The position numbers and the translations under genes were made by a program. 64,000 bases of DNA from NCBI RefSeq assembly GCF_014490485.1, contig NZ_JACTVA010000002.1:62001-126000 (forward strand), given 5' to 3'. The notes below the pieces were generated by a model. It was not told the origin of the DNA and did no database searches. It saw only the letters and a list, made by a program, of their open reading frames with translations. Positions 5,617-24,774 of this stretch are shown here, piece by piece. Positions within the stretch are counted from its first letter, which is position 1, and each line of letters starts with the position of its first letter. The stretch is from Teichococcus aerophilus (lineage in GTDB: Bacteria > Pseudomonadota > Alphaproteobacteria > Acetobacterales > Acetobacteraceae).

Positions 5617-5689
5617 CTGGCCCCCCCCTGGCCAGCGCCTGGCCAGGGCGGCATGCTGCCAGGGCCAACCCTTTGCCCTGGAGCCCGCC

Positions 5690-6913: not shown

Positions 6914-6918
6914 CGGCA

Positions 6919-6936
6919 CGGCGCGGAGCCGCGCCG
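6919..6936. terminator. Hairpin between convergent genes
   Basis: An 8-bp GC-only stem (6919-6926 with 6929-6936) around a two-base centre lies immediately after the serine hydrolase stop and ahead of the convergent MFS gene. It has no T-run; a terminator role is inferred from position. Confidence 0.35.
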
Positions 6937-6982
6937 ACAGCCCGCTAGTGAAGCGTGCTTCGCGTCTTTCCGTGAAGCTACC

Positions 6983-8194: not shown

Positions 8195-8204
8195 GTTGTG
8201 ACCT

Positions 8205-8768: not shown

Positions 8769-8802
8769 GTCCGGTTCCTGCGCCTGTTCGGCGGTCCGGA
8801 CA
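8769..8802. repeat. Inverted repeat between FUSC and PRC-barrel genes
   Basis: TGTCCGG (8769-8775) is matched by CCGGACA (8796-8802) across 20 bases, abutting the PRC-barrel start codon. It could be an operator or a weak processing hairpin; nothing identifies a binding protein. Confidence 0.3.
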
Positions 8803-8858
8803 AGTGTTTTGGCCTGACGCGCTTGCGTGAGCGGCAGGTCCTGGCCTGAAGGGCAGCG

Positions 8859-10997
8859 CTACCGCTGCGGCGCCATTCCGGTGGCCTCGGCCGGCCCATG
8901 CTCATGGCCCCGCCGCAGGGCGCCTTCCAGCAGCTCGATCTGCCGGGCGATCCGGCTGAGCGGATTGGCCAGTGCATCGCCGGGCGGCAATTCCGGCCGT
9001 GGCGCGATGGGGGTGTTGCCCGTGGTCAGGGCGCCCAGGGACTGGCTGAGCCAGTTCCGCCAGGCCTCGCCATGCGCGGGGTCCAGGCTCTCCCGCGCCG
9101 CCGTATCGTACCAGAGGGCGGAGAGGCGGCCAGCGATCCGCCGCAGCGTCGCATCCACCAGCGTGGCCTGCGCCACGGCGGGAGAACGGCTGCCGCCCGG
9201 TTCCTGCAAGGCGCGGGAGAGCGACGTCTCCAGGTTGTTGGTGGTGACGCCTGCGGCGCGCCGGGCGGCATCGAAGCTGCCGGCATTCGGCTCCCCCAGC
9301 AGGTCCGACATCACCGCCTTGGCATAGGCCGCGTGGGCGGTGATGGCCTGGCGCTGCTCCTGCCCCAGCCGCACCGGCTCCCAGCTCGGCCAGAGCAGCC
9401 AAGCGCCGGCGACGGCGATCAGCCCGCCCGCGACGGTGAACAGCGCGCGCAGCTCCGCCACTTCCCAGGAGCTATGGCCCGGGTGCACCAGCTCCATCAG
9501 CACGACGACGATGGGTGTCACGCCCGCGATCCAGGCGACGAAGCTGACCTGCCGGGCGGCGAAGGCAACGGCGCAAAGCGGGAACAGCAGCATGGCCATC
9601 TGCAGCGGCGTGCTGGGCAAGTAAGCCAGCAGGGCACCGACCAGCCCGCCCAGCACCGTGCCACCCACCCGCTCCAGCGCCCGCTGCCAGGTGGTGGCGT
9701 AGAAGGGCTGCAGAGTGACGACGGCGGTGATGGTCAGCCAGTAGGCGAATTGCTGGCCATAGGGCAGCGTCAGCACCAGGGCCGGTGTGGCGACTGCGGG
9801 CACCCGCACGGCATGCCGCAGGATGGCCGAATGCCAGTTGAGGTTGGACAGCAATGGCGCCAGCACCCGGTCCCGCCAGGGTTGAGAGGGGGCGACGCCG
9901 GCGCCGCCGCCGGGCAGGTAGCCGCCCGGCGTGCTGAGCAGCGCCGCGATCCGCAGCCGGTCGAGAATCGCTTCCGTCAGGGGGCGGAGCACCGGGTCGT
10001 GCGCCGTGGCGGCCAGGGCCCGCTCGCCAGCCCGCGTCAGCGCCGGCAGGCGCAGCGGCGTATCGTCCAGCATGGAGCGGGAGAGCACGACCAGCATGGG
10101 CCGCAACAGCCGGAGCAAGGTCTCTGCCGCCTGCAGGCGGGCGGTGTCCTTGCTGCCTTCCACCACGCCCGCGAGCGCGATCAGGCTGCCGAAGACCTGG
10201 TCGCAGGCCTCCAGCCGCAACAGGGATTGGGAGCCGCGCAGCGAGAGGCGGCCGCGCTTGCCGGCCAGTTCCATCACCAGGCCACGGGCGTACTCGATTT
10301 CCTCGCGCACCGCACGGCGATGGGCGCGGCCGTGGGCATCGAAAGCCGCACTGTCCTCGCCGCCAGCCAGGATCAGTTGGCGCAGGCCTTCCGCCAGGGC
10401 GGCCAGCCGCCGCCAGCATTCGGACACCGCCGTCCGTGCCGGGCGATACAGGTGCACGCGCCAGATGCCCATGGTCAGCACGGTGGCCCACAGGCCGCCG
10501 GCCACGAACATCGCCCCGACCTCCAGCGCCTGGTGTAACGCCAGCGGCTGGTTCAGCGACAGGATCAATACGATGGACAGGATGTTGCCCACTGAGGTGG
10601 CGCTGGTGCCCCAGATGCGCGCGAAGCTGAACAGGAACAGGGTGGCGCAGGCGATGGGGATGGCCACGGCCACCCCCGCATTCCGCAGCAGGCCAAAGCC
10701 CATCCAGGTCGCCGCGCCCAGCACGGTGAAGGCCAGCAGTGCCGGTACGCGGAAGCGGATTGGCCCGCCCGCGTCGCACAGGCATGTGAAGAAGGAGGCC
10801 AACGCCATGTAGACCAGGGGCGGCCAGCCCAGCCATTCGTTCGCCAGGATGACCACTGCGCAGGCCAGCGCGGCGCGGATGCCTTCGGCCATGCTGAGCG
10901 CGCTGAGGTCGAGGCCCAGCGGCAGGCGCGCGAGATCCGCCCCGGGATTACGTGGGGTACCGCCGCCGATGAACCTGTCGCCTGGGCGCCTCGGCAC
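8859..10997 (-). CDS. FUSC family membrane protein (aromatic acid/drug efflux type)
   Basis: 712-residue protein with the FUSC layout, in which two clusters of about six membrane helices each lead into a cytoplasmic domain. The first cluster lies around residues 35-190 and the second around residues 395-540 (LPYGQQFAYWLTITAVVTLQ, then the FUSC signature WQRALERVGGTVLGGLVGA). Relatives include AaeB, which exports p-hydroxybenzoate, and YccS-like proteins. Translation is taken from the GTG at 10997; an internal methionine near residue 36 is an alternative start just before the first helix. It lies alone upstream of the PRC-barrel/MFS pair. The substrate is inferred only from family. Confidence 0.85.
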   Translation of the reverse strand: MPRRPGDRFIGGGTPRNPGADLARLPLGLDLSALSMAEGIRAALACAVVILANEWLGWPPLVYMALASFFTCLCDAGGPIRFRVPALLAFTVLGAATWMGFGLLRNAGVAVAIPIACATLFLFSFARIWGTSATSVGNILSIVLILSLNQPLALHQALEVGAMFVAGGLWATVLTMGIWRVHLYRPARTAVSECWRRLAALAEGLRQLILAGGEDSAAFDAHGRAHRRAVREEIEYARGLVMELAGKRGRLSLRGSQSLLRLEACDQVFGSLIALAGVVEGSKDTARLQAAETLLRLLRPMLVVLSRSMLDDTPLRLPALTRAGERALAATAHDPVLRPLTEAILDRLRIAALLSTPGGYLPGGGAGVAPSQPWRDRVLAPLLSNLNWHSAILRHAVRVPAVATPALVLTLPYGQQFAYWLTITAVVTLQPFYATTWQRALERVGGTVLGGLVGALLAYLPSTPLQMAMLLFPLCAVAFAARQVSFVAWIAGVTPIVVVLMELVHPGHSSWEVAELRALFTVAGGLIAVAGAWLLWPSWEPVRLGQEQRQAITAHAAYAKAVMSDLLGEPNAGSFDAARRAAGVTTNNLETSLSRALQEPGGSRSPAVAQATLVDATLRRIAGRLSALWYDTAARESLDPAHGEAWRNWLSQSLGALTTGNTPIAPRPELPPGDALANPLSRIARQIELLEGALRRGHEHGPAEATGMAPQR

Positions 10998-11065
10998 TCT
11001 GCAAAACCCTATCCGGAAGTCATGGAGGTGCGCCCTGCGCCTCCCATGCGGTCAGGTTCAGTAAC

Positions 11066-11107
11066 GCGGATCACGGCGTGGCGCCAAGCGCCGCCTTGCC
11101 GATCCGC
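11066..11107. repeat. Nested palindrome between divergent FUSC and lipoprotein genes
   Basis: Outer arms GCGGATC (11066-11072) and GATCCGC (11101-11107) enclose an inner perfect repeat GGCGC-CAA-GCGCC (11080-11092), in the 223-bp gap between divergently transcribed genes. It may be a double-operator or an RNA hairpin; function is unknown. Confidence 0.35.
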
Positions 11108-11220
11108 ACGCCGTTTGGCCGGTGGCGGCAGGCTGGTGCGTGGCGGGTCAACGGAATGGCGATTGATGCGTTACCCCCGCATCCTGCACTGCGCAGACGC
11201 AGGTAGAACGGAGGTTACAG

Positions 11221-11421
11221 ATGCGGAATCTTGGATTTGGAATGCTCGGCCTCGGCCTGCTGCTCGGTGCCTGTGCACCGGATGGCAGCAACTATGCCGC
11301 GCCCGCCTCGGGGCAGGTTGTCCGCGAAGGTGGCCGGCCGGCCGAGCCGCGCCCGACCGCACCGCCGCCGCCGGGCACGCCGATCATGAACACGACGCCC
11401 AGCACGGGCCCGTCCCGCTAA
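11221..11421 (+). CDS. Small lipoprotein, proline-rich
   Basis: 66-residue exported lipoprotein. The N-terminal hydrophobic stretch ends in a lipobox LLGAC with the lipidated cysteine at residue 18. The mature part is only about 49 residues, rich in Pro, Thr and Ser (TAPPPPGTP), with no recognisable domain. The start is well supported by CGGAGG seven to twelve bases upstream of the ATG. It is a stand-alone gene ended by a strong bidirectional hairpin. Similar tiny Pro-rich lipoproteins are common in Acetobacteraceae and usually have no known role. Confidence 0.75.
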   Translation: MRNLGFGMLGLGLLLGACAPDGSNYAAPASGQVVREGGRPAEPRPTAPPPPGTPIMNTTPSTGPSR

Positions 11422-11434
11422 GGGAACTGGCATT

Positions 11435-11463
11435 CGCTGTGCCTCCGGACAGGAGGCACAGCG
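11435..11463. terminator. Bidirectional hairpin between lipoprotein and ABC operon
   Basis: A perfect 12-bp stem (11435-11446 with 11452-11463) and 5-base loop GGACA lies between two convergent genes, 13 bases after the lipoprotein stop and 6 bases before the ABC ATPase stop. It lacks a T-run on either strand but its symmetry suits both genes. Confidence 0.65.
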
Positions 11464-11469
11464 AGGCTG

Positions 11470-13071
11470 CTAGGATACGGCTTCCAGCCTGGGGGCCGCT
11501 TCCAGCAGGGCCTGGGTGTAGGGATGGACAGGGGCATCGAAGATGCTGTCCCGGTCGCCTTCCTCCACCAGCTTGCCATGCTGCATGACGACGACGCGGT
11601 CGGCGATTTCCTCGACCGCGGCAAGGTCATGCGAGACGAACAGGCAGGCGAAGCCGCGTTCCTGTTGCAACTTGCGGAATAAGGTTAGGATCTGCTTCTG
11701 GACCGTCATGTCCAGCGCACTGACAGGCTCATCCGCCACGACCAGGGCTGGGTGCCGCACGATGGCGCGAGCGATGGCCACGCGCTGGCGCTGACCGCCG
11801 GAGAGCTGATGGGGGAAGCGTTCCTCGAAGCCCGGCAGGCCGACATCCTCGAACGTCTTCAACACCCGTTCCCGCTTCTGCTGCGGCGACAGGCCCGGTT
11901 CATGCCGCAACGGCTCCATCACGATCGAGCCGATCCGCTGGCGGGGGTCGAGCGATGAGTATGGGTCCTGGAACACGATCTGGCAGGACAGGCGGAAGCG
12001 CCGGTAATCGTCGTCGCGCTGTTGGGTGACTTCCTTGCCGCGGAAGAACAACTGGCCGCCCGTCGGCTGCACCAGCCGCAACATGGCGCGCCCCAGCGTG
12101 GTCTTGCCCGAGCCGCTGCCGCCGACCAGGGCCACCGTCTCGCCCGGATACAGGGCAAGGTCCACGCCATCCACGGCCTTCACCGCCGGCGTGCGGCGGA
12201 ACAGCCGCTGCCGGCCCTGGTAATGGACCTGCAGGCCCCGCGCCTCCAGCACCGGCGAAGCCCGTTCCGGCCTGGAACCCGTGCGCGGCACACGGCGGGG
12301 CAACGCGTCGACGAGAGCCTTTGTATAGGCCTCACGGGGCGAGGACAGCAGCGCGCGGGCGCCGCCTTGTTCGACGATGCGCCCGCGCTGCATGACAATG
12401 GCGCGGTCCGCATAGCGGGCGACGAGGCCGAGATTGTGCGTGATCAACAGCACCGCCGTGCCTTCATGCCGCGCCAGCCCGACCATCAGGTCCAGGATCT
12501 CGCGCTGCGACAGGGTATCGAGCGCCGTGGTCGGCTCGTCGGCGATCAGCAATGCCGGCTTCAGCATCATTACCGAGGCCAGCATGATTCTCTGCCGCAT
12601 CCCGCCGGAGAACTCATGCGGATAGGCGGCCAAGCATTGCTCCGGGTCGCGGATCTGCACGCGCTTGAGCATCGCGATACAGGCGGCGCGGATCTCGGCC
12701 TTGGAGAGGGAGGTATGCAGCGCCATGCCTTCCTCCATCTGTGCACCGATGGTCAGGGCCGGGTTCAGCGATACCATCGGTTCCTGGAACACCATGCCAA
12801 TGGCGGCGCCACGGAGATCGCGCAGCCGATCCGCGCTGACGGTCAGCAGGTCCTCGCCCTTGAAGCGGACGGCGCCGCCCGAGCAGGTCAGCCCCGGCGG
12901 CAGCAGGCCGATCACGGCCCGGCCTGTCGCCGTCTTGCCGCTGCCGGATTCGCCGACGACAGCCAGGATCTCACCGGCCTCGACATGGAAGGAGATGCCG
13001 TCGACGGCCACCAGCTTGCCGCCGGCGGCGGTGATGCGCAGCGCATCAACTTCCAGCAGGGAAGGGCTCAT
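11470..13071 (-). CDS. Peptide-type ABC transporter, fused DppD-DppF ATP-binding protein
   Basis: 533-residue ATPase carrying both nucleotide-binding domains of an oligopeptide/dipeptide transporter in one chain (GsiA-like). Domain 1 has Walker A GESGSGKT (40-47), signature FSGGMRQ (154-160) and Walker B LLIADEP (174-180). Domain 2 has Walker A GGSGSGKT (317-324) and signature LSGGQRQRVAIARA. A short Arg/Pro linker at about 259-273 joins them. The start overlaps the permease stop as ATGA. It is the last gene of an eight-gene operon and energises two DppB/DppC-type permeases with two candidate solute-binding proteins. Confidence 0.93.
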   Translation of the reverse strand: MSPSLLEVDALRITAAGGKLVAVDGISFHVEAGEILAVVGESGSGKTATGRAVIGLLPPGLTCSGGAVRFKGEDLLTVSADRLRDLRGAAIGMVFQEPMVSLNPALTIGAQMEEGMALHTSLSKAEIRAACIAMLKRVQIRDPEQCLAAYPHEFSGGMRQRIMLASVMMLKPALLIADEPTTALDTLSQREILDLMVGLARHEGTAVLLITHNLGLVARYADRAIVMQRGRIVEQGGARALLSSPREAYTKALVDALPRRVPRTGSRPERASPVLEARGLQVHYQGRQRLFRRTPAVKAVDGVDLALYPGETVALVGGSGSGKTTLGRAMLRLVQPTGGQLFFRGKEVTQQRDDDYRRFRLSCQIVFQDPYSSLDPRQRIGSIVMEPLRHEPGLSPQQKRERVLKTFEDVGLPGFEERFPHQLSGGQRQRVAIARAIVRHPALVVADEPVSALDMTVQKQILTLFRKLQQERGFACLFVSHDLAAVEEIADRVVVMQHGKLVEEGDRDSIFDAPVHPYTQALLEAAPRLEAVS

Positions 13072-13889
13072 CGCTCGGCGCTCCTCGGGTCCAGTCGGTC
13101 ACGCAAAGCATCGCCCAACAGGTTCACGCCCAGCAGGGTCAGGGCGATGCACAGGCCCGGCGCCAGGCTGAGCCAGATGGCGGATTCCATGTACGGCCGA
13201 GCGGCCGCCAGCATGTTGCCCCAGGTCGGTGCCGGCGGCGGCACGCCGAGGCCGAGGAAGCTCAGCGCGCTTTCCGCCAGGATCGCCCAGCCGAACATGC
13301 TGGTGGCCAGCACGATCAGGGGTGACGCGGTGTTGGGCATGACGTGGCGCCACATCGTGTAGCCCTCCGAATTGCCGATCGAGCGGGATGCCTCGACAAA
13401 CTCCCGCTCGCGGATGGAGAGCACGGCACCGCGGACCACCCGCGCCACGGTCGGCGCATAGGCGAGGCCGAGCGCCAGGATGATGCCCCACTGGCTGGCG
13501 CCGATAACGGCCATCAGCCCCAGCGCCAGCAGGATGCCGGGGAAGGCCAGCAGCGCATCGTTGATGCCCATCAGCACGCGGTCCACCCAGCCGCGCAGAA
13601 AGCCTGCCACTAGGCCGAGCAGCGAGCCGAGCAGCACGGCGGCCAGCACCGCGAGACCGGCGACCATGACCGAGGTACCCGCACCGGTCATGATCCGGCT
13701 GAACACGTCGCGGCCGACTTCGTCGGTGCCGAGCCAGAACTCCGCCGAGGGCGGCTTCAGGCGCTGCCGCAACGCGACGGCCAGGGGGTTGCGGGGCGTC
13801 CAGACGATGGATGCGGCTGCCAGCAGCAGCGTCGCGCCCACCAGGATGCTACCGATCAGGGCATTGGCCCTCAGGCGGATGCGCGGCAT
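13068..13889 (-). CDS. Peptide-type ABC transporter permease, DppC-like
   Basis: 273-residue inner-membrane permease with the OppC N-terminal element (LGTDEVGRDVFSRIMTGAG) and about six membrane helices. The cytoplasmic EAA loop that docks on the ATPase is FVEASRSIGNSEGYTMWRHVMPN. The start ATG at 13889 overlaps the preceding permease stop (TGATG), and its own stop overlaps the ATPase start. A longer upstream frame lies inside the DppB-like gene and is rejected. It forms the translocation pore with the DppB-like protein. Confidence 0.92.
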   Translation of the reverse strand: MPRIRLRANALIGSILVGATLLLAAASIVWTPRNPLAVALRQRLKPPSAEFWLGTDEVGRDVFSRIMTGAGTSVMVAGLAVLAAVLLGSLLGLVAGFLRGWVDRVLMGINDALLAFPGILLALGLMAVIGASQWGIILALGLAYAPTVARVVRGAVLSIREREFVEASRSIGNSEGYTMWRHVMPNTASPLIVLATSMFGWAILAESALSFLGLGVPPPAPTWGNMLAAARPYMESAIWLSLAPGLCIALTLLGVNLLGDALRDRLDPRSAER

Positions 13890-14833
13890 CAGGAAGCTGT
13901 CACGCGCGGATCGAAGAAGGGATAGGCCAGGTCCACGAGCAGGTTTACCACCACATAGATGGTTGCGATGAACAGCATGCAGCCCTGCACCACGGGATAG
14001 TCCCGGGCATAGATGCCGTCGACCAGCAGGCGCCCCAGGCCGGGCAGGGTAAACACGGTCTCGATGACCGCCACGCCGCCGAGGAGGTTGCCCAGTACGA
14101 TGCCGATGAGCGTCAGGGTCGGCGCGAAAGCATTCGGCAGGACATGGCGGCGCAGAACGCGGCTTTCGCGCAAGCCCTTGGCACGGGCATGGGCCACGTA
14201 TTCCAGCCGCAGCACATCGATGGCCGCCGCCCGCGCCATGCGGGTCAGGATACCGATCTCGATGAGCGTCAGGGTGGCGACGGGCAGGACAATGTAGAGC
14301 GCGGCCTTGAACGCGTCCTCGGAGAAGGAGACGTAGCCGACCACCGGTACCCAGCCGAGCTTCAGCCCAAAGAACAGCAGCATCAACAGGCCGAGCCAAA
14401 AGCTGGGAATGGACAGCAGCAGCGTGGCGCCGGAGACGATGGCGAAATCCGCCTTGGTGTTCTGCCGCCACGCGGCCACCGTGCCCAGCGGAATGGCGAC
14501 GACCGCCGCGATGGCCACCGCGGCGAAGACGATGGTGGCCGTGACCTGAAAGCGGGAGAGCGCTAGCGGAAGCACCGGCAGGTCGTTGGTGGTGGAGCGG
14601 CCAAGGTCACCATTGACGGCATGCAGCAGCCACAGGCCGTACTGCACGAACACCGAGCGGTCGAGCCCCATGGCCGCGCGCATGTCGGCCGCCTGCTGTG
14701 GATCGGCCTGATCCCCCAGCATCAGCACCACGGGGTCGCCCGGCACCAGCCGCATCAACAGGAAGACGGCCGCCGATACCAGGATGAGCGTGGGGACCGA
14801 GAGGATGAGCCGGTTCAGCGCATATCGCAGCAT
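13889..14833 (-). CDS. Peptide-type ABC transporter permease, DppB-like
   Basis: 314-residue permease of the DppB/OppB family. It opens with the classic helix MLRYALNRLILSVPTL and the periplasmic element LVPGDPVVLMLGD. The EAA loop is YVAHARAKGLRESRVLRRHVLPN, followed by ETVFTLPGLGRLLVDGIYARDYPV, the family C-terminal block. The start lies three bases after the stop of the upstream binding-protein gene, so all transport genes are tightly linked. Substrates of this family are peptides, nickel, opines or other amide-containing solutes; neighbouring hydrolases point to an amide. Confidence 0.92.
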   Translation of the reverse strand: MLRYALNRLILSVPTLILVSAAVFLLMRLVPGDPVVLMLGDQADPQQAADMRAAMGLDRSVFVQYGLWLLHAVNGDLGRSTTNDLPVLPLALSRFQVTATIVFAAVAIAAVVAIPLGTVAAWRQNTKADFAIVSGATLLLSIPSFWLGLLMLLFFGLKLGWVPVVGYVSFSEDAFKAALYIVLPVATLTLIEIGILTRMARAAAIDVLRLEYVAHARAKGLRESRVLRRHVLPNAFAPTLTLIGIVLGNLLGGVAVIETVFTLPGLGRLLVDGIYARDYPVVQGCMLFIATIYVVVNLLVDLAYPFFDPRVTAS

Positions 14834-14836
14834 GGT

Positions 14837-16396
14837 TTAGCGGACCCAAACGTTCCAGAGGCGGGTATGGCCGGATGGCCATGCGCGCAGCCCCTGGATC
14901 GCGTCCCGGCCAGCCAGGAAGTCCGGCTGGTTGTAGAGGATGACCATCGGCACATCCTGGGAGAACAGCTTGAACAGCTCGGCCAGGATGGCCTGCCGCT
15001 CGGCATCGTCGGTCACTTGCATGCTGCGCTGGACCAGCGCCTGCGCGGCCGGGTTGTCCCACACCTTGCGGGGCTGCGTCTCCTTCGGCCCGGCGATCAT
15101 CTCATAGGAGAGGGAGGGATCGAGCCGGGCGGAGTAGATAAAGGACTGCATCTGGTAATCGCCACGCGTGTACCGGTCCAGCTGCGTGGCCCAGTCCAGC
15201 ACCTCCAGTTCGATCTTGAGCCCGGCTTCCTCGGCCATGGCCTGGGCCGCCACTGCGGCGTCGTAGGTGTTGGCGTAGCGCCGGTTCACCTGCATGCGGA
15301 TCGGCTGGCCACGATAGCCAGCTTCGGCCAGCAGCCTGCGCGCGGCGGCCACGTTACGTGCCGGGCGCTGCGACTGCGCCTCGTCATGCCAGCGGCTGCG
15401 GATCGGCACGATGGAGGGATTCTGCTGCGCCATGCCCTCCATCGTCCCCTCGACGATCTGCTGCACATCGAGCGAAAGGGCGAAGGCCTGGCGGATGCGT
15501 GGGTCGCGCAGCACCGGGTCCCGCGTCTGCAACAGGAAGGCGGTCACGCCCATGGTGGGGGTGTGCAGCAGCGTGACGCCGGGGCGGGTGCGGAGATCGG
15601 TGGCTTCCGCCATCGGCACATCCGTCAGTACATCGACCGAGTTGCCGAGCAGGGCCGCGCGGGCGGCGGAGGCGTCGGGGATGACCACGAAGCGCAGGCG
15701 CGCCGCGTAGGCAACCTTCCCGCCGGTGAAGCCATCCATCTCGCCTTGGCGGGAGGCATACCGGTCGAAGCGCGTCAGCTCGATCGACTGGCCGCGTTTC
15801 CATTCGCCGATGCGGTAGGGGCCGGTGCCAATCGGCTCGCGCCACTGGCCATCGGCCCCGACGGAGTCCGGGTGCAGGATGGCGGTCTGGCCGCAATCGG
15901 CGCGGGCGATGATGCTGAGGAAGATGGCGGACGGCTTGTCCAGCGTGACAGCCACGGTCTGCGCATCGACCGCCTCGACCGAGACGACCTTGGAGAGGCC
16001 ACGGCCATCCAGATCCGGCAGGCACCGCCACTGCGTGGCCGGGTTCAGGTAGCGCCGCCAGCTCCAGACCACATCGGCGGCGGTCATCGTCGCGCCGTTG
16101 TGGAAGGTGACGCCCTGGCGCAGCTTGAAAGTATAGGTGCGGCCGTCTTCCGAAAGGCTCCAGCTCTCGGCCAGCATCGGGCCGACGGAGGTGTCCTCCC
16201 GATACGCCACAAGCCCTTCCAGGACGTGCATCATCACCACGTCGGTATTCGCATCCCGGTTGCCGCCTGGCTGGGTGCCGCGGATATCCGAGTTGAGGGA
16301 GGCGCGGATAGTATAGTCCCCAGGCGTTTGCGCCAGGGCAGGCTGGGCGGCCCAGAGACAACCCAGGAAGACCGTGCGACCCAGCGCCGCTCGCAT
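14837..16396 (-). CDS. ABC transporter substrate-binding protein, family 5 (second of two)
   Basis: 519-residue periplasmic binding protein of the peptide/nickel (SBP_bac_5) family with an N-terminal Sec signal peptide ending near ALAQ. Family features include the start NSDIRGTQPGGNRDANTD, the GLVAYRED segment, AESWSLSEDGRTYTFKLRQGVTFHNG, and GTGPYRIGEW. It shares the unusual NRDANTD block and overall plan with the other binding protein in this operon, so the two are paralogues. The ATG at 16396 overlaps the stop of the C45 hydrolase gene (TGATG). It delivers solute to the downstream permeases. Confidence 0.92.
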   Translation of the reverse strand: MRAALGRTVFLGCLWAAQPALAQTPGDYTIRASLNSDIRGTQPGGNRDANTDVVMMHVLEGLVAYREDTSVGPMLAESWSLSEDGRTYTFKLRQGVTFHNGATMTAADVVWSWRRYLNPATQWRCLPDLDGRGLSKVVSVEAVDAQTVAVTLDKPSAIFLSIIARADCGQTAILHPDSVGADGQWREPIGTGPYRIGEWKRGQSIELTRFDRYASRQGEMDGFTGGKVAYAARLRFVVIPDASAARAALLGNSVDVLTDVPMAEATDLRTRPGVTLLHTPTMGVTAFLLQTRDPVLRDPRIRQAFALSLDVQQIVEGTMEGMAQQNPSIVPIRSRWHDEAQSQRPARNVAAARRLLAEAGYRGQPIRMQVNRRYANTYDAAVAAQAMAEEAGLKIELEVLDWATQLDRYTRGDYQMQSFIYSARLDPSLSYEMIAGPKETQPRKVWDNPAAQALVQRSMQVTDDAERQAILAELFKLFSQDVPMVILYNQPDFLAGRDAIQGLRAWPSGHTRLWNVWVR

Positions 16397-17532
16397 CAGG
16401 CGGCGACCGCCTGCGCGGCGCCTCCATCCAGCGTGTAGCGGGTGAAAGTCTTGTTGATGGCCGGCAGCGGGGCGATTTCCAGCACGCCGAGCTTGGGCTG
16501 CATCAACAGCATCGCCACGGTCGCCGAGAGGTTGCCGGCCAGCGAGAGGCGCGGCGGGCGGCACACCGCCCACGGGTGCTGGAAATCGTCGAACAGCGCG
16601 TCCCGGACCGCCGCCATGTCCAGCCGCCCCTGCTTCGCTTCCAGCAGCGAGCGGACCCGCATGTCCCGGTACAGCGTGTCCGGCGTGTTGGCGATGCCGG
16701 TATCCTTCAACTTGCCCAGCGCCACGGGGCTCTGCCAGTGGTTGGCGTGCACCAGCATGCCGTTCTGCGGATGCACCAGGAAGGTCTCGTCCGGCGCGCA
16801 TTCGAAGTTCAGCGCCACGCCATCGGCATGGCTCAGCATGATGTTGTTGGAGCCGGATTTCTTCGTGACGTAGGCAGTGCGCATCGCCATCGCCAGATGC
16901 TCCGACTGCAGGAACTTCCGGCGGAGCAGGGCCAGCGGCACGCCCAGCTCGCGGTAGTCGCGGTCGCTTTCCAGGTAGTTCGCCGTGACGGCAACGCCGG
17001 CCGAATTCAAGCCTGCCCGTGCCAGCCCGCCGGCCTCGACGAAGGTGAGGATATCCGGGCCGTTCTCTTCACGGATGCGCAGCACCACGCCGGTCTCAGC
17101 GCATTCGGACTTCCAGTCCCAGTTCTGTCCATGGACCAGCAAGCCGTCCTGCGTGGCCTCCGGCAGCAGAATCACGCCGGTGCAACCATCCGGGTCCGCC
17201 TTGGGCGAGGGCACCGCCGCCGCGGCGCTACGTTTGCCGAGCTGCAGCACCTCAGTTCGTGCGTTGATTAGCACGATATCCTCGAAGGGCACGTTGGCGC
17301 CTTCGGAAATGCCGCGCATCTCGGCGACGAAGCTGGGTTCGAAGGCCTCGATGCTCGGCACGAAGTCCCGCGCCCAGCCACGCACGCGCTCGGCACCATG
17401 GCCGGCGGCAGAAAGCTGCGCGGCGTAGTGGCCGATGCTGCGGCGAATGCGCTCGGCGGCCTGCTGGCCGTAGAGGCGGCCGCGCGCTTCCGGCGTGCCG
17501 TGCAATTCAATCAGGGGGAATGCTTCAACCAT
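16396..17532 (-). CDS. C45 family autoproteolytic acyltransferase/hydrolase
   Basis: 378-residue Ntn-hydrolase related to isopenicillin N acyltransferase (peptidase family C45). These proteins self-cleave at Gly-Cys to expose a catalytic cysteine, then hydrolyse or transfer acyl groups on amides. Here the Gly116-Cys117 pair sits in PDGCTGVILL. Other conserved elements are LINARTE just before it, LLVHGQNWDW after it, and GLARAGLNSAGVAVTAN. No signal peptide is visible, so it acts in the cytoplasm. It lies between two solute-binding-protein genes, 12 bases after one and overlapping the other, which strongly implies that the imported solute is its substrate. The actual substrate is unknown. Confidence 0.9.
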   Translation of the reverse strand: MVEAFPLIELHGTPEARGRLYGQQAAERIRRSIGHYAAQLSAAGHGAERVRGWARDFVPSIEAFEPSFVAEMRGISEGANVPFEDIVLINARTEVLQLGKRSAAAAVPSPKADPDGCTGVILLPEATQDGLLVHGQNWDWKSECAETGVVLRIREENGPDILTFVEAGGLARAGLNSAGVAVTANYLESDRDYRELGVPLALLRRKFLQSEHLAMAMRTAYVTKKSGSNNIMLSHADGVALNFECAPDETFLVHPQNGMLVHANHWQSPVALGKLKDTGIANTPDTLYRDMRVRSLLEAKQGRLDMAAVRDALFDDFQHPWAVCRPPRLSLAGNLSATVAMLLMQPKLGVLEIAPLPAINKTFTRYTLDGGAAQAVAA

Positions 17533-17544
17533 GACCAGATATCC

Positions 17545-19113
17545 TCAGCGCTGCCGCCAGATGCCCCAGGTGACCGGGCGCCCGGCCGGCCAGGGAGTGA
17601 CGCCCTGCAGATCCTGCCGGCTGGCGACGATCTGAGGCATGAAATAGAGACCAATGGAGGGCACGTCCTGCGCCATCAACGCGTGCATCTGCCGGAACAG
17701 CTCGGCACGCCGCGTCATGTCGCTGGTGGCCGAGCTTTCCGTCAGCAGGCGGATCACTTCCGGGTTCTCCCACTGCGCCGAAGCACCCCGCGCCTTCTCG
17801 CCCACCAGGGAGCTGAAGGCCAGGCCGGTGTCCAGGCGCGGCGAGAACGAGAAGGACTGCAGCTGGAAGTTGCCGGTGGTATAGTTGGAAAGCTGCGTAG
17901 CCCAGTCGAGCACTTCCAATTCCACACGGAAGCCGGCCGCCGTCAGCATGGCCTGGGTCGCGACGGAATTGTCGTACATTCCGTTGTAGCGGCGGTTGGT
18001 CTGCAGCTTGATGACCTGGTTGCGATACCCGGCTTCCCGCAGCAGGGCACGCGCCCGTGCCGGGTCGTAGGCCGGCCACGCGCGGAAGCTCTCGTCGAAG
18101 AAGCTCATGGACGGGCTGACCGGGGATGGGCTGGGCTCCGCCAGCCCCATGGTGCGGATTTCGGCCAATTGGCTCAGGTCGATCGCATGCGCCATGGCGC
18201 GGCGGATGCGCGGATCCTTCAGCACCGGGTCGTTCGTCTGGATCAGCAAGGTGCTCCAGGACAGGCCGGGCGCCGACTGGACGCGTAACCCCTGTGCCCG
18301 CAATGCATCGGCGCGCTCGATATCCGCATCCGGCATCAGGTCGATGGCGCCGGTCTGCAACGCTGCCTCGGCCGCGCTCTGGTCCGGAATCACCCGGTAG
18401 ATCACCTGGTCCAGCATCACGTCCCGGCGGCCGGAATAGCCGCTGGCGGGCGCGGAGCTTGCGCCGTACTGCTCGAAGCGCTGCAGGGTGACCAGCTCGC
18501 CGCGGCGCCATTCGCCCAGCTTCCAGGGGCCGGTGCCGATGGGCGCCTGGAACTTGCCGTCCGCCCCGAAGCTGTCCTGGTGCGCTACGACGACGCCGCA
18601 CTGCACGCTGGCCATCCAGGGCAGGAACAACGCGCTGGGATTGGCGATGCGGTAGACGATGGTGGACGCGTCCGGCGCCTCCACCGACTGCACCTGCAGG
18701 CCACCCGACTGGTCGAAGATGCGCCGGCAGGGCCAGGCCTGGTTGTTCCACTGCCGGTCCCACGCCGCCTTCACGTCGGCCGATGTCAGCCGGGCCCCGT
18801 TGTGGAACACCGCATTGTCGCGCAGCTTGAAGGTCCAGACCCGGCCATCCTCGCTGGAGGTCCAGCTATCCGCCAGGGCTGGGCCGACGCCCAGGTCGGT
18901 CTGGTAGCCGACCAGCCCTTCGTAGATCTGGTGGACGATGCCGTCGGTATTGGCATCCCGGTTGATGCCAGGCTCCAGGCTGCGGATATCGGCGTTCAGC
19001 CAGATGGCAGCCCGGCCACCGCGCTGCGGCGCCTGCGCCCGCGCATCCTGGCAGAACGTCGTGGCCAGCGCGGCCACGCAGGCAGCCAGCGCGGCAGTGC
19101 GGAACGGGGTCAT
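17545..19113 (-). CDS. ABC transporter substrate-binding protein, family 5 (first of two)
   Basis: 522-residue periplasmic binding protein with a Sec signal peptide ending near ARAQ. It has SBP_bac_5 landmarks: NADIRSLEPGINRDANTD, YEGLVGYQTDLGVGPALADSW, FKLRDNAVFHNGARLTSADV and GTGPWKLGEWRRGE. Closely parallel blocks in the second binding protein show tandem duplication with the C45 gene between them. The start overlaps the alpha/beta-hydrolase stop. No dedicated second permease pair exists, so both binding proteins probably serve the same DppBC-DF transporter with different ligands or stereoisomers. Confidence 0.92.
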   Translation of the reverse strand: MTPFRTAALAACVAALATTFCQDARAQAPQRGGRAAIWLNADIRSLEPGINRDANTDGIVHQIYEGLVGYQTDLGVGPALADSWTSSEDGRVWTFKLRDNAVFHNGARLTSADVKAAWDRQWNNQAWPCRRIFDQSGGLQVQSVEAPDASTIVYRIANPSALFLPWMASVQCGVVVAHQDSFGADGKFQAPIGTGPWKLGEWRRGELVTLQRFEQYGASSAPASGYSGRRDVMLDQVIYRVIPDQSAAEAALQTGAIDLMPDADIERADALRAQGLRVQSAPGLSWSTLLIQTNDPVLKDPRIRRAMAHAIDLSQLAEIRTMGLAEPSPSPVSPSMSFFDESFRAWPAYDPARARALLREAGYRNQVIKLQTNRRYNGMYDNSVATQAMLTAAGFRVELEVLDWATQLSNYTTGNFQLQSFSFSPRLDTGLAFSSLVGEKARGASAQWENPEVIRLLTESSATSDMTRRAELFRQMHALMAQDVPSIGLYFMPQIVASRQDLQGVTPWPAGRPVTWGIWRQR

Positions 19114-19988
19114 GGCTGCATCTCCGTCTCGGCTACGGTCCCGCGTCGGGAGCGTGTGAAATGGTGGGTGAAAAAGTCTTCGACGGCTGGCGCCACCCGC
19201 GCATAGTCATGCGCGACCCCGGGTACGACATCGCAGCGAACCGCGATCCGCTGTGCCTCCAGGCTGCGGCCAAGGGCCTTGATGCGGTCGATGCGGTTGG
19301 CACCCATGGCATCGGCGCCCGGCATCCACAGCCGGCTTTCGCGCGGCACAGCGATTTCCCAGGTTTCCGTGTCATCGCCGCCGACGACGGTCTGCACCGC
19401 CACGTCGCGCATGGCGGGGACGTTCAGCGGCTTGCCGAAATGCTTCGCGAAATCCCGCGTGCCGGCCCAGAAATCGTAGCTGTCATCCAGCAGCGTGACG
19501 ATGCCGGGCGCGCCGATCGATACAGCCTCCAGCGCTTCCGGCTGCGCGTAGAGGAAGCGATGCGCGAAATGCCCACCGCCTGAGAAGCCGAACAGGGACA
19601 TGCGTGGGCCGCTGATGCGGTACTTCGCCCGCATCTCCGCCGCCATATCCAGCAGGATCTCGTCGTAGCGCAGGTCGCCGGCGCGCAGGAACTTGTAGCT
19701 GTTCAGCTCGCCCGGCGCGGTGATGCCGGCGGGAAACAGCGGTGCCAGCAGGATCAGCTGGCACCGCTCGGCCAGGTTGATGAAGGCCTCCCGGTAGGCC
19801 GCGTTGTCCCGCAGGGTACCGTGCAGGATGACGAGCAGGGGGTAGGACTGGGTACCCTCCTCCTCATAGCTCTCCGGCACATAGGCGCAGTAGGAGAAAC
19901 GGGGGTCGCTCTGGCACGCCTGCACCGTCGTGCGGCCGAAATCGTAATAGCTCAGCCGCGTGCCATGGCCTGGAATCTTGCGGACCAT
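19110..19988 (-). CDS. Alpha/beta hydrolase (PHB-depolymerase/esterase-like)
   Basis: 292-residue predicted serine hydrolase. The nucleophile elbow is GFSGGG with Ser136, the oxyanion HG is at 56-57 (VILHGTLRDN), and the likely catalytic histidine is H260 (GVAHDYARV). An acid residue is probably in the VVGGDDTETW region. The fold resembles the polyhydroxybutyrate depolymerase/feruloyl esterase group but there is no signal peptide, so it is likely cytoplasmic. Its start touches the amidase stop and its end overlaps the first binding-protein gene, fixing it in the operon. It may deacylate the imported compound or a product of the amidase. Confidence 0.85.
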   Translation of the reverse strand: MVRKIPGHGTRLSYYDFGRTTVQACQSDPRFSYCAYVPESYEEEGTQSYPLLVILHGTLRDNAAYREAFINLAERCQLILLAPLFPAGITAPGELNSYKFLRAGDLRYDEILLDMAAEMRAKYRISGPRMSLFGFSGGGHFAHRFLYAQPEALEAVSIGAPGIVTLLDDSYDFWAGTRDFAKHFGKPLNVPAMRDVAVQTVVGGDDTETWEIAVPRESRLWMPGADAMGANRIDRIKALGRSLEAQRIAVRCDVVPGVAHDYARVAPAVEDFFTHHFTRSRRGTVAETEMQP

Positions 19989-21394
19989 TACTGCGCTCCT
20001 CGCGGATCGATGGGAAGGATCGGCGGCCGGTGCGCCTCGATGATTTCGGCGGCCTCGTAGCAGAGGGCTTCGCGGAACCGTCCGGCGACGAGCTGCACGC
20101 CGACGGGCCAGCCCGCCCCGCCGCCTACCGGCACGGACAGGCCCGGCAGGCCGAGCGCCGAGACGGCCAGCATCGGCGCCTGTTCCCGCAGCATCCGCGC
20201 GGTAGTCTCGGCGTCCCGCAAGTCCTCATCCACCGGATAGGGAAGAGCGCAGGAGACCGGCATTACCAGAATGGGCCAGTCTTCCAGGAATAATTGCCAC
20301 TGGCGCAGTATGGCGTTGCGCTGTGCCAGCGCGGCCAGGCAGGTGCTGGCATCCACCTGCGGCCAGCTCTCCCGCCACAGCGCTAGCGCCCGGCGGATCG
20401 CCGCATCACCATGGCGCTCGACCAGCGGCACCAGCCCGGCAATGACATCGGGCATGCCCATGGCCGGCCACAGCGCCGCCGCTTCATGCAGCTGTGGGGG
20501 TGCGACCTCTTCCACCGTCCAACCGGCAGCCTGGAGGCGCCAGCCGGCTTCGCGCACCGCGGCAGCGATGACGGGGTCGGTCACGCCCATCTCGGGCACC
20601 AGGGCGGCGTGGCGTGGTCGGCGCGGCGGTGGCAGGTCTCCCGTCACTACGTGGCGCGGGTCGCGCGGGTCCGGGCCCGCCATCACCTCCAGCGCCAGGC
20701 GATTGTCCCGCACGCTGCGGGTCAGCGGGCCCTGCACGGCCATGAGCTGCGACGAGATCGGCGCAGCGCCCCCGGCGGAGGCGTTGAAGGACGCCACCCG
20801 GCCGTAGCTGGGCCGCATGCCCACCAGGCCGCAGCAATAGGCCGGGTAACGGACGGAGCCGGCGATGTCGTTGCCATGGGCAATGGCGCCGATCCCCGCC
20901 GCCACGGCCGCGCCCGCCCCGCCGGAGGAACCGCCGCAAGTGATGCCGGCATCCCACGGGTTCAGGGTCGCGCCATGCAACTCGTTGTCGGTGAACCAGC
21001 GCATGGAGTAGCAGGGGGTATTGGTGCGGCCGACGATCACCGCGCCGGCCTTGCGGAAATTCGCCACGACCGGGCTGTCTTCCGTTGCCATGACGTCGCG
21101 ATAAGCTACCACGCCGCCATCTGTGGGATGGCCGGCCTGGTCGATATTCACCTTGATGGTGACTGGCACGCCGTGCAGCGCACCAAGTGCCTGGCCGGAG
21201 GCGCGGGCCTTGTCCGCCTGTTCCGCCGCCGCCAGGGCCTCTGCGTCCATCCGCCGCACCACCGCGTTGATCTGGGGATTGACCTGTTCCAGCCGCTGCA
21301 GCGTCGCGGCCGTCAGTTCACGGCTGGACAGCACACCGCTGCGGATCAACGCGGCGGCTTCGGTGGCACCCAGGCTCCACAGCGGCACCGTCAT
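19988..21394 (-). CDS. Amidase signature family enzyme
   Basis: 468-residue amidohydrolase that cleaves an amide to acid plus amine. The Ser-cisSer-Lys triad is visible as K81 (VPVTIKVNID), S156 in CGGSSGGAG and nucleophile S180 in DIAGSVRYPA. I chose the ATG at 21394, giving the usual short lead (LWSLGATEAAALIRSG). This ATG overlaps the stop of an 18-codon leader frame that has a good ribosome site. In-frame ATGs at 21433 and 21499 give longer, atypical N-termini and the last overlaps the divergent regulator. It is first in the eight-gene uptake operon. Confidence 0.88.
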   Translation of the reverse strand: MTVPLWSLGATEAAALIRSGVLSSRELTAATLQRLEQVNPQINAVVRRMDAEALAAAEQADKARASGQALGALHGVPVTIKVNIDQAGHPTDGGVVAYRDVMATEDSPVVANFRKAGAVIVGRTNTPCYSMRWFTDNELHGATLNPWDAGITCGGSSGGAGAAVAAGIGAIAHGNDIAGSVRYPAYCCGLVGMRPSYGRVASFNASAGGAAPISSQLMAVQGPLTRSVRDNRLALEVMAGPDPRDPRHVVTGDLPPPRRPRHAALVPEMGVTDPVIAAAVREAGWRLQAAGWTVEEVAPPQLHEAAALWPAMGMPDVIAGLVPLVERHGDAAIRRALALWRESWPQVDASTCLAALAQRNAILRQWQLFLEDWPILVMPVSCALPYPVDEDLRDAETTARMLREQAPMLAVSALGLPGLSVPVGGGAGWPVGVQLVAGRFREALCYEAAEIIEAHRPPILPIDPRGAQ

Positions 21395-21447
21395 GCCTGG
21401 ATCGAGGCCGGAAGTGGTGCTGGCTGACAACATTCCGCTTGCGGCAT
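21391..21447 (-). CDS. Putative 18-residue leader peptide before the amidase
   Basis: Short frame encoding MPQAECCQPAPLPASIQA. A GGAGA ribosome site (minus strand, 21458-21454) sits about six bases before its ATG at 21447. Its TGA overlaps the amidase ATG as ATGA, so the amidase, which has no convincing ribosome site of its own, could be translated by re-initiation. The Cys-Cys pair is noteworthy because paired cysteines occur in other short regulatory uORFs. Translation is not demonstrated. Confidence 0.4.
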   Translation of the reverse strand: MPQAECCQPAPLPASIQA

Positions 21448-21497
21448 CGGGTGTCTCCGGTGGAATGAAGCAAAACGTTAATGTACTTCGGTGTGAC

Positions 21498-22418
21498 ATG
21501 GAACAGAAAATCGCGTCCTCTGCCTCGCTTCACCTCAGCCGGTTGGCACGCGATCTCCTGACGCCGGTGCTGGAATGGATCCGCCGCGAGCAGCTGGAGC
21601 CTGGCGCCCGCCTGACGGAGCAGGCCCTGGCCAAGGCGCTGCGGGTGTCCCGTACCCCGGTGCGCGCGGTGCTGGAGGAATTGGAGCGGCAGGGCGTGGC
21701 GGAGCGGCGACCTTCCGGCGGCTATGTCCTGCGCACGCTGGCCTTGCCGACGCCTGAGGCTGCGCATGCGCCGGTACTGGATGATATCGAGCTGCTCTGC
21801 CTGCGGATCGCGCGGGACCGGGTCGCCGGCATCCTGCCGCACGAGGTCTCGGAAGCCGACCTGATGCGCCGCTACGGCATCAGCCGGCCGATCCTGCTGC
21901 GCGTGTTGGGCAGCCTGTCCGAGATCTCGATGGTGGACCGGAAGCCAGGGCATGGTTGGACGTTCACCCAGACCCTGACGGACCCGGCGGCGCGGGCGGA
22001 GAGCTATCGCTTCCGGCTGGTGCTGGAGCCCGCGGGCATCCTGATGCCGAGCTTCGCCCTGCCGCCCGGATGGCTGGCGGAGATGCAGGCCCGCCACCAG
22101 GCCATGCTGGCCGCGCCCTGGACCGAGACCAGCGCCATCGCGTTGTTCGAGATGAATGCCTCGTTCCATGACGGCCTCGCCGCCGCATCCGGCAACCGGC
22201 ACCTGGCCCAGGCGATCCAGCAGCAGACCCGCCTGCGCCGCTTCAGCAATTACGACTGGTCCTGGGGCCGGGCAGGGGTCGTCGCGTCCTGCCGGCAGCA
22301 TCTGGAGATCCTGGAGCAGTTGGAGCGTGGTGAGCGCGAGGTGGCATCCTTGCTCATGCGGCGGCACCTGGAGCGGACCAGTGCCCTGCCGCCGATCGGC
22401 CCGCGCCCACCCGAATAA
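21498..22418 (+). CDS. GntR-family regulator with two winged-helix segments
   Basis: 306-residue regulator. Residues about 15-75 are a standard GntR winged helix (GARLTEQALAKALRVSRTPV). Residues about 92-155 look like a second winged helix (HEVSEADLMRRYGISRPILL, then a wing ending near GHGWTFTQ). The rest is an FCD-like helical effector domain (YRFRLVLEPAGI, FHDGLAAASGN). The start at 21498 leaves a short gap to the divergent amidase operon, which it most likely controls. An aminotransferase gene follows 66 bases downstream on the same strand. Duplicate DNA-binding segments are uncommon in the family. Confidence 0.85.
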   Translation: MEQKIASSASLHLSRLARDLLTPVLEWIRREQLEPGARLTEQALAKALRVSRTPVRAVLEELERQGVAERRPSGGYVLRTLALPTPEAAHAPVLDDIELLCLRIARDRVAGILPHEVSEADLMRRYGISRPILLRVLGSLSEISMVDRKPGHGWTFTQTLTDPAARAESYRFRLVLEPAGILMPSFALPPGWLAEMQARHQAMLAAPWTETSAIALFEMNASFHDGLAAASGNRHLAQAIQQQTRLRRFSNYDWSWGRAGVVASCRQHLEILEQLERGEREVASLLMRRHLERTSALPPIGPRPPE

Positions 22419-22484: not shown

Positions 22485-23819
22485 ATGAAGGATGCCATGA
22501 CCGATGCCCCCAGCGCCGAGGCGATGGAGGCCTACTGGTTGCCCTTCACGGCCAACCGTGCCTTCAAGGCGCAGCCCAAGATCTTCTCCGGCGCCGATGG
22601 AATGTACTACTTCACGCCCGACGGGCGCCGGATTCTGGACGGCATGGCCGGGCTCTGGTGCGTCAATGCCGGGCACAACGCCCCGCGCATCGCCGCCGCC
22701 ATCCGCGAGCAGGCCGGGAAGCTGGACTACGTCTCCTCCTTCGGCATGAGCCATCCGCTTGCCTTCGAGCTGGCCCGCCGCATCGCCGCCGTGGCGCCGG
22801 AGGGGCTGGACCACGTCTTCTTCGTGAACTCGGGGTCCGAGGCAGTGGATACGGCGCTGAAGATCGCCAGGGCCTATCACCAGGCACGGGGCGATGGCCG
22901 CCGCATTCGCCTGGTCGGCCGGGCAAAGGGCTATCATGGCATGGGCTTCGGCGGCCTGTCCGTTGCCGGGATATCCCGCCATAAGCGCGATTTCGGACCC
23001 CTGCTGGGCGAGGTCGACCACCTGCCGCACACGCACCACCCGGAGCACAACGCCTTCTCCCGCGGCTTGCCCGCCTGGGGGGCGCATCTGGCGGATGAGC
23101 TGGAGGCGATCTGCGCCATCCAGGACCCTTCCACCATCGCTGCGGTGATTGTCGAGCCGGTGACCGGCTCCGGCGGCGTGCTGCCGCCCCCGGTCGGCTA
23201 TCTGGAGCGGCTGCGGAAGATCTGCGACCGCCACGGCATCCTGCTGATCTTCGATGAGGTCATCACCGGCTTCGGCCGCATCGGCGCCCCGTTCGGCGCG
23301 CAGGTCCTCGGCGTCACGCCGGATATCATCACCTGCGCCAAGGGCATGACCAACGGGGCGGTCCCCATGGGCGGCGTGCTGGTGAACCGGCAGGTCTTCG
23401 ACACGTTCATGGACGGTCCGGCGGAAGCGCCGGAACTGATGCACGGCTACACCTATTCGGGCCACCCCCTGGCCTGCGCCGCCGGCATCGCCGCGCTGGA
23501 TACCTATGAGCAGGACGGCATCTTCGAGAACACGCCCAAGACCGCATCCGTGTGGGAAGATGCCGCGCACGCGCTGAAGGATGCGCCGCATGTGGTGGAC
23601 ATCCGCAATATCGGCCTGCTCGCGGCGATCGAGCTGGCACCGCGGGCCGGCGCCGGCGGCACGCGCGCGGCCAGCGTTATGCAGCACTGTTTCGACAAGG
23701 GCGTGCTGGTGCGCACCGCCGGGGACACGCTGGTGCTTTCCCCGCCGTTGATCATCACTCCGGACGAGATCGACCGGCTGTTCACCACCATTCGCGAAGG
23801 GCTGATGTCGCTGAACTGA
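22485..23819 (+). CDS. Omega-aminotransferase (beta-alanine--pyruvate transaminase-like), class III
   Basis: 444-residue PLP-dependent transaminase. The PLP-binding lysine is K286 (ITCAKGMTNGAVP) and the pyridine-nitrogen aspartate is D257 (LLIFDEVITGFGR). The N-terminal WLPFTANRAFKAQP and FFVNSGSEAVDTALK blocks match the omega-amino acid:pyruvate group. It transfers an amino group from beta-alanine-type or other omega-amines to pyruvate. GAGGAGAGGCCG precedes the ATG. Standing behind the amidase-operon regulator, it could consume the amine released by amide hydrolysis; that link is inference. Confidence 0.92.
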   Translation: MKDAMTDAPSAEAMEAYWLPFTANRAFKAQPKIFSGADGMYYFTPDGRRILDGMAGLWCVNAGHNAPRIAAAIREQAGKLDYVSSFGMSHPLAFELARRIAAVAPEGLDHVFFVNSGSEAVDTALKIARAYHQARGDGRRIRLVGRAKGYHGMGFGGLSVAGISRHKRDFGPLLGEVDHLPHTHHPEHNAFSRGLPAWGAHLADELEAICAIQDPSTIAAVIVEPVTGSGGVLPPPVGYLERLRKICDRHGILLIFDEVITGFGRIGAPFGAQVLGVTPDIITCAKGMTNGAVPMGGVLVNRQVFDTFMDGPAEAPELMHGYTYSGHPLACAAGIAALDTYEQDGIFENTPKTASVWEDAAHALKDAPHVVDIRNIGLLAAIELAPRAGAGGTRAASVMQHCFDKGVLVRTAGDTLVLSPPLIITPDEIDRLFTTIREGLMSLN

Positions 23820-23891: not shown

Positions 23892-24033
23892 GCGCTGCGT
23901 TTAAGGGTCTGGTAGAGCAGGAAGGCGCTGGAATCGCCAAGACGCGCGAATCATGCGAACACAGGGGCCTTGGCGCGCGGCTCATGTCGCGCCGCGCCCA
24001 GCATCCCCAGCCGAGACTTCGGAGACCGCCTCC

Positions 24034-24774
24034 ATGGCGCCTACTCGTCCCATCATGTTGTTGACCGGTGCCAGCCGCGGCATCGGGCACGCGACGGTGA
24101 AGCGCTTCCAGGCGGAGGGCTGGCGGATCCTCACCGTCTCCCGCCAACCCTTCTCCGAAGAGTGCCGCTGGCCCGAAGCGCGAGAGAGCCACATCCAGGC
24201 GGATCTCTCCGACCCCGCCGCCTTCGGGCCATTGATCGAGGATGTGAAAAGCCGCCTGCCGGATGGAAAGTTGCAAGCTCTGGTCAACAACGCTGGCATA
24301 TCGCCCAAGGTCCAGGGTGGCGGGCGCATGGGCCTGATGGATACCGATTACGCCACCTGGATGAACGTGTTCAACGTCAACCTGTTCGCCACGGCCACCC
24401 TGGCGCGCGGGTTGTTCGGGCCGCTGAAGGCCGCCCAAGGGGCGATCGTCAACGTAACCTCCATCGTCGGCTCCCGCGTGCATCCCTTCGCGGGCGCGGC
24501 CTATGCGTGCTCGAAGGCCGGGCTGGCGGCGCTGACACGGGAGATGGCGCATGAATTCGGCGGCCACGGCATCCGGGTCAACGCCATTGCCCCGGGCGAG
24601 ATCGACACCGCCATCCTCTCCCCGGGCACCGAGGACATCATTCAGCGGCAGATCCCGATGCGCCGCCTGGGCGATGCGAGCGAGGTGGCGGAGACGATCC
24701 TGTTCCTCTGCTCCGCCCGCTCCTCCTACATCAACGGTGCGGAAATCCACATCAATGGCGGGCAACACGTCTAG
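24034..24774 (+). CDS. Short-chain dehydrogenase/reductase (SDR)
   Basis: 246-residue classical SDR oxidoreductase. The cofactor motif TGASRGIG starts at residue 11, NNAG at 85-88, and the catalytic triad is S143, Y157 and K161 (YACSK). The C-terminal NGAEIHINGG block is typical. The ATG at 24034 gives the usual seven-residue lead to the first strand; a longer frame upstream lacks support. It is separated from the aminotransferase by hairpins, so co-regulation is unclear. The absence of an acidic residue after strand 2 (VSRQPF) leaves NADP(H) possible. Substrate unknown. Confidence 0.9.
   Translation: MAPTRPIMLLTGASRGIGHATVKRFQAEGWRILTVSRQPFSEECRWPEARESHIQADLSDPAAFGPLIEDVKSRLPDGKLQALVNNAGISPKVQGGGRMGLMDTDYATWMNVFNVNLFATATLARGLFGPLKAAQGAIVNVTSIVGSRVHPFAGAAYACSKAGLAALTREMAHEFGGHGIRVNAIAPGEIDTAILSPGTEDIIQRQIPMRRLGDASEVAETILFLCSARSSYINGAEIHINGGQHV

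Follow-up and report, generated by a model that had tools for sequence, protein, structure and literature searches.

What does a C45 hydrolase do in an operon whose other genes include those for an amidase and a peptide-type importer? Bacterial C45 enzymes are common, and the few found with known substrates serve natural-product biosynthesis. The question is raised by a locus of Teichococcus aerophilus (contig NZ_JACTVA010000002.1, positions 62,001 to 126,000; this stretch of 64,000 nucleotides is called the window here), in which eight minus-strand genes encode an amidase-signature enzyme, an alpha/beta hydrolase, two solute-binding proteins (SBP1 and SBP2), a C45 proenzyme, two permeases (DppB- and DppC-type) and a fused DppD-DppF-type ATPase (DppDF). 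Neighbouring genes overlap by 1-4 nucleotides or are separated by gaps of 3-12, so a single transcript is likely, and the eight genes likely form one operon, divergent from the genes for a GntR regulator and an omega-aminotransferase. All eight were found at the coordinates given in a preliminary description of this DNA, which had proposed a dedicated system for importing and deacylating an N-acyl or beta-lactam-like compound. The import-and-deacylation part of that proposal agrees with synteny, co-occurrence and the parallel divergence of C45 and permeases, while the beta-lactam version finds no support. The operon probably encodes a dedicated catabolic, nutrient-scavenging importer for an amide-containing solute.

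The evidence for a dedicated system comes from the conservation of the gene set. Eighty genome loci were gathered by C45 similarity, and orthologs near C45 were counted. Orthologous DppB is present at 59 of the 80 loci, DppC and DppDF at 55 each, the GntR type at 54, SBP2 (at 45% identity or more) at 46, the alpha/beta hydrolase at 28 and the AptA-type aminotransferase at 24. The carriers span six orders (Acetobacterales, Rhizobiales, Rhodobacterales and Burkholderiales, as well as those represented by Pseudomonas and Izhakiella), so the synteny across genera that had been suggested as a check is indeed conserved. DppDF proteins beside C45 are 50-86% identical, while no other full-length DppDF match in these flanks exceeds 46%. 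Because the synteny is based on orthology, the grouping goes beyond chance, and orthology and co-occurrence together led to rejection of chance proximity of C45 and importer. Stronger evidence than the locus counts is the reverse test, which starts from genomes with DppDF. Among 289 evenly drawn Alphaproteobacteria genomes, C45 occurs in 17 and a DppDF ortholog in 11, and C45 is present in all 11 of the latter (hypergeometric 5e-16, or 2e-11 by genus, both made optimistic by relatedness); of the 15 DppDF matches, 13 are no more than about 7 kb from C45. Across 65 loci, pairwise distances for C45 and the permeases correlate with r of 0.88-0.90, about equal to the transporter parts among themselves and partly due to common species ancestry. 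The entire set with its amidase is also seen in other families, beyond close relatives: Tistrella mobilis plasmid pTM1 carries SBP-hydrolase-amidase, GntR, AptA, C45, two permeases, the ATPase and a dehydrogenase resembling succinate-semialdehyde dehydrogenase (SSADH) consecutively, and Pseudoroseomonas cervicalis plasmid pL11-A carries AptA, an FCD regulator, amidase, hydrolase, SBP, permeases, ATPase and C45. The genome G193 has AptA, C45, amidase, GntR, SBP1, hydrolase and a second SBP1-type gene, and C45 relatives occur on 30 plasmid records.

The C45 gene itself (16396..17532, minus strand) encodes an N-terminal nucleophile (Ntn) hydrolase proenzyme, and its family assignment is borne out by scores of 274 bits for NF040521 (cut-off 85) and 38 bits for PF03417, the Pfam AAT family (cut-off 23.2). 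Alignment with Penicillium isopenicillin N acyltransferase pairs Gly116-Cys117 with Gly102-Cys103, D139 with Asp121 and N264 with Asn246, where Asp121 and Asn246 are catalytic residues of the fungal enzyme. The self-cleavage site Gly116-Cys117, already pointed out in the preliminary description, is present, and G116, C117, D139 and N264 are invariant in 84/84 C45 sequences aligned; by its residues the enzyme looks catalytically intact. The AlphaFold model (pLDDT 88, pTM 0.90) has isopenicillin N acyltransferase (2x1c/2x1d, TM 0.78-0.84) as its best structural match, followed by N-acylethanolamine acid amidase and then acid ceramidase, which points to a predicted Ntn fold like that of isopenicillin N acyltransferase. 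No signal peptide is apparent, as judged, both here and for the binding proteins, by reading the sequences, and the protein is predicted to be cytoplasmic because it starts directly with the catalytic domain. Amide cleavage by a bacterial C45 enzyme is exemplified by AzsT, which desuccinylates its substrate (PMC10445470). Additional C45-like copies lie near the first copy in some genomes (L073:19654-21080, L046:16197-17447 and L061:4739).

All importer genes are on the minus strand. SBP1 (17545..19113; PF00496, 263 bits) and SBP2 (14837..16396; PF00496, 283 bits) both have signal peptide-like N-terminal segments and are 43.6% identical over 484 aa, which agrees with their earlier description as paralogous SBP_bac_5 proteins. 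The C45 gene lies between them, and SBP2 is followed by the DppB-type permease (13889..14833; PF00528 and PF19300), the DppC-type permease (13068..13889; PF00528, 110 bits) and DppDF (11470..13071; PF00005 in two stretches, 203.6 bits). A profile search thus finds SBP_bac_5, two BPD_transp_1 permeases and an ATP-binding cassette (ABC) ATPase with an oligo_HPY region, and by these profiles the transporter is a member of the peptide/nickel/opine (PepT-type) class of ABC importers. The nearest solved structure to both binding proteins is AgaA (SBP2 against 6hlx, 4e-40). None of the named subfamilies (DppA, NikA, GsiB, OppA and others) was reached by the binding proteins or permeases at NCBIfam equivalog cut-offs; the best binding-protein score is 144.7 bits against a cut-off of 600, and the permeases score 267 and 293 against 300 and 350. 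Peptide-type importers are extraordinarily numerous in this genome (103 SBP_bac_5 genes in 5.66 Mb), so a binding protein and a permease operon close to C45 would be weak evidence on their own.

The clearest metabolic clue to the pathway is the aminotransferase (22485..23819, plus strand), an AptA-type enzyme scoring 671.5 bits for NF052567 (cut-off 500). Its nearest solved relative is beta-alanine:pyruvate transaminase (4b98), and the preferred substrates of the Caulobacter omega-transaminase are beta-alanine and beta-aminobutyrate (PMC3281772). AptA orthologs occur in 109/289 of the Alphaproteobacteria genomes (E 1e-160 or better), usually unlinked to C45. In a quick tree with limited sampling, all 27 C45-linked copies fall outside the clade of 18 ordinary unlinked copies (SH-aLRT 100), and two genomes with one linked and one unlinked copy each follow the same split. 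This tree led to rejection of the idea that AptA is a housekeeping gene adjacent by accident. At three loci (L116, L117 and L119) a different class-III aminotransferase, adjoined by an aldehyde dehydrogenase, stands in for AptA next to GntR-C45-SBP-Dpp; in the two that were scored, L116 and L117, the aminotransferase is PRK06105-type and the dehydrogenase SSADH-like. Another locus (L072) has a PRK07482-type aminotransferase and an SSADH-like dehydrogenase. These non-orthologous pairs therefore suggest a recurring role, in which an omega-amino compound is converted to a semialdehyde that is then processed. In the window the plus-strand order downstream of GntR is omega-aminotransferase and then a possible member of the short-chain dehydrogenase/reductase (SDR) family (23953..24774; NF009466, 171.6 bits, below cut-off), relatives of which, 62-64% identical, adjoin C45 in L058 and L060.

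The GntR/FCD-family regulator (21498..22418, plus strand; PF00392 and PF07729) is separated from the operon by a divergent spacer containing the conserved box GAAGTACATTA (21479..21489, minus strand; consensus AAARTRCAYTA), which is found in GntR-divergent spacers of many genera. Scored as AAARTACAYTA with at most two mismatches, the box is present in 18/24 representative spacers compared with 1.9 expected in shuffles, an enrichment inflated by the reading of the consensus, after the fact, from the same spacers. As a sequence element it may be a -10 promoter element, a GntR operator, or both. We infer that GntR controls both divergent transcripts. The roles suggested earlier, GntR for control and the aminotransferase for the released amine, fit the shared spacer box and the separate clade of linked aminotransferases.

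Two further hydrolases open the operon. The amidase (19988..21394, minus strand) scores 306 bits for PF01425 and 606 bits for NF005687 (cut-off 428). Its reading frame is open up to 21499; the gene had been given a start at 21447, but 21394 is more likely because homology begins there. Orthologs with 52-79% identity are found at six loci (L009, L016, L090, L091, L125 and L126), and the idea that the amidase is confined to close relatives was rejected, since it is also present in the G193, Tistrella and Pseudoroseomonas loci. The alpha/beta hydrolase (19110..19988, minus strand; 292 aa) matched no family in a Pfam scan, and its model (pLDDT 90) has an alpha/beta-hydrolase fold with PahZ1, poly(aspartic acid) hydrolase-1, and LpqC as best structural matches. 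Across 22 sequences the residues S136 (in GFS136GG), D206 and H260 never vary. Downstream of the operon the window has FUSC-family and major facilitator superfamily exporter genes (6983-10997); neither accompanies the operon in more than a single relative, L009, which has the latter only.

The gene content, its synteny and co-inheritance, the intactness of the catalytic residues and the predicted folds are established, and the following sequence of steps is proposed. A small amide-containing solute would be bound by SBP1 and SBP2 in the periplasm and taken up into the cytoplasm through DppB, DppC and DppDF. There the C45 proenzyme would cleave itself between Gly116 and Cys117, and Cys117 would then hydrolyse an amide via an acyl-enzyme, while the amidase and the alpha/beta hydrolase might cut at related bonds, amide or ester. 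The co-inherited AptA-type transaminase would convert the freed omega- or beta-amino product into a semialdehyde, to be reduced or oxidised by the SDR enzyme in the window or by an SSADH-like enzyme in other species, and the GntR/FCD regulator would sense the substrate in controlling the two transcripts. The catabolic direction of this pathway, hydrolysis rather than transfer by C45, and the omega- or beta-amino nature of the product are inferred. A broader proposal, possible but somewhat less likely than its opposite, is a widespread and undescribed pathway for environmental omega- and beta-amino acid amides, in which C45 would catalyse the committed step in the cytoplasm and the omega-transaminase would be a specialised paralog. 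Such a pathway might be nature's equivalent of the breakdown of nylon oligomers or beta-alanyl amines and could include a pantothenase.

Several observations weigh against a strictly dedicated system. One relative (G005; locus L120, G005:C174:10000-29900, 4217-14043) has no C45 and keeps SBP2-DppB-DppC-DppDF-GntR with a divergent AptA-type aminotransferase. After GntR it carries an alpha/beta hydrolase and a second hydrolase, which has a beta-lactamase fold and is a relative of 6-aminohexanoate-dimer hydrolase (NylB); an enzyme similar to this second hydrolase is found at L117:15524-17017. Since G005 lost C45 and kept the transporter, the coupling of C45 and importer is strong but not absolute; absence of C45 from syntenic operons, which the preliminary description had taken as refuting its proposal, is seen in this one relative. 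Orthologous DppB is missing from 21/80 loci, some of them because contigs end, and several loci without the orthologous importer carry TctC-type binding proteins and tandem NodB/PuuE-like deacetylases. As about a quarter of the loci lack the orthologous importer, the C45 family is not bound to one transporter or ligand. The DppDF ortholog of G193 is far from its C45. Only 24 loci have a linked AptA-type transaminase, and few lineages have the amidase, so the final pathway steps are not universal. The NodB/PuuE-like pairs (L010:17022-18598, L020, L027, L029, L035, L080 and L086), alongside which TctC-type binding proteins often replace the Dpp importer, are a second C45 context, and a third has subunits resembling sulfopyruvate/phosphonopyruvate decarboxylase directly upstream of C45 (L112:7789-8304 and L113:10346-11522).

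If the operon were an ordinary peptide or opine importer, it would bring in a small peptide or an opine-like conjugate, with C45 as a general peptidase-like hydrolase. The transporter family, the closeness of both binding proteins to AgaA and the abundance of such importers in this genome all agree with this explanation; nevertheless, it is unlikely, as the operon has no standard-type peptidase, the transporter orthologs track C45, and the linked omega-aminotransferases and semialdehyde dehydrogenases are ill-suited to ordinary alpha-peptides. Another candidate substrate is pantothenate or a derived amide, with C45 as a pantothenase freeing beta-alanine, which AptA-type enzymes use. In Pseudomonas fluorescens no protein has yet been assigned to the pantothenase activity (PMC10393543), and C45-DppBCDF loci are present in that species. 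For pantothenate, however, so large a peptide-type importer, with its two binding proteins, would be unusual, and there is no recurring set for pantoate degradation (only two loci have an isopropylmalate-dehydrogenase-family gene near C45), which makes a pantothenase improbable.

It is about as improbable, or slightly more so, that C45 is a biosynthetic acyltransferase like isopenicillin N acyltransferase and that the importer delivers precursors. AzsT and DobA are C45 enzymes of natural-product biosynthesis (PMC10445470, PMC12154687), but carrier proteins or synthetases were not seen recurring around the locus, and the presence of an importer, a regulator, a transaminase and a dehydrogenase points to a catabolic role. 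Least probable of all is the import and deacylation of a beta-lactam or other antibiotic, as penicillin-amidase-like detoxification or use. Although C45 belongs to the isopenicillin N acyltransferase family and its model matches that structure, identity is only 23-24%, a likeness of fold and mechanism alone; the neighbours are amino-acid and semialdehyde catabolic enzymes, no recurring penicillin-handling gene was noticed in the 80 neighbourhoods, and it would be unusual for an antibiotic to be actively imported. The beta-lactam substrate, having no support, was dropped. A nutrient-scavenging importer for an amide-containing solute is preferred to all of these.

The gene set is real, conserved across bacteria, many of them living in soil or with plants, and apparently undescribed; a literature search, thin on subscription papers, found no description of a C45-Dpp-GntR-aminotransferase operon, and an earlier description is possible. 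In many genera C45 goes together with one specific importer, regulator and transaminase, and the main value of this is that the function of a large orphan C45 branch becomes testable. The two binding proteins offer a direct route to the ligand, which would reveal the amide nutrient and a catabolic role for the C45 family.

Among known systems, Penicillium isopenicillin N acyltransferase shares the predicted Ntn fold, the Gly-Cys site and the Cys, Asp and Asn residues, but the operon context here is import and catabolism rather than penicillin synthesis. Opine and peptide ABC importers (Dpp, Gsi and AgaA-type) have the same parts, SBP_bac_5, two permeases and an ABC ATPase, while the binding proteins and permeases of the window remain below every named equivalog cut-off. 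The nylon-oligomer pathway consists of the NylA amidase, NylB, NylC, the NylD aminotransferase and the NylE dehydrogenase, and its logic parallels that of the operon: amidohydrolases of several folds, a class-III transaminase and a semialdehyde dehydrogenase. NylC belongs to an Ntn family different from C45, and we know of no C45 enzyme or dedicated ABC importer in that pathway. The NylB-related hydrolase at the G005 locus is a further likeness, while no PF00144 (NylB-family) hydrolase was found among the operon genes of the window, related ones being present only at G005 and L117; the operon amidase is likened to NylA by reaction logic. AzsT and DobA, two bacterial C45 enzymes from diazo natural-product clusters, also strip off an N-acyl (succinyl) group, but from carrier-protein-bound biosynthetic intermediates. 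Tan, the insect N-beta-alanyldopamine hydrolase (PMC10194958), is a C45 amide hydrolase with Gly-Cys self-cleavage that frees a beta-amino acid, a product that would suit a beta-alanine-type transaminase; it is an animal enzyme with no transporter or operon, likened to the window C45 by family and reaction. Set beside all of these, the operon is not a new kind of system: its parts are of known kinds, and what is new is how they are combined.

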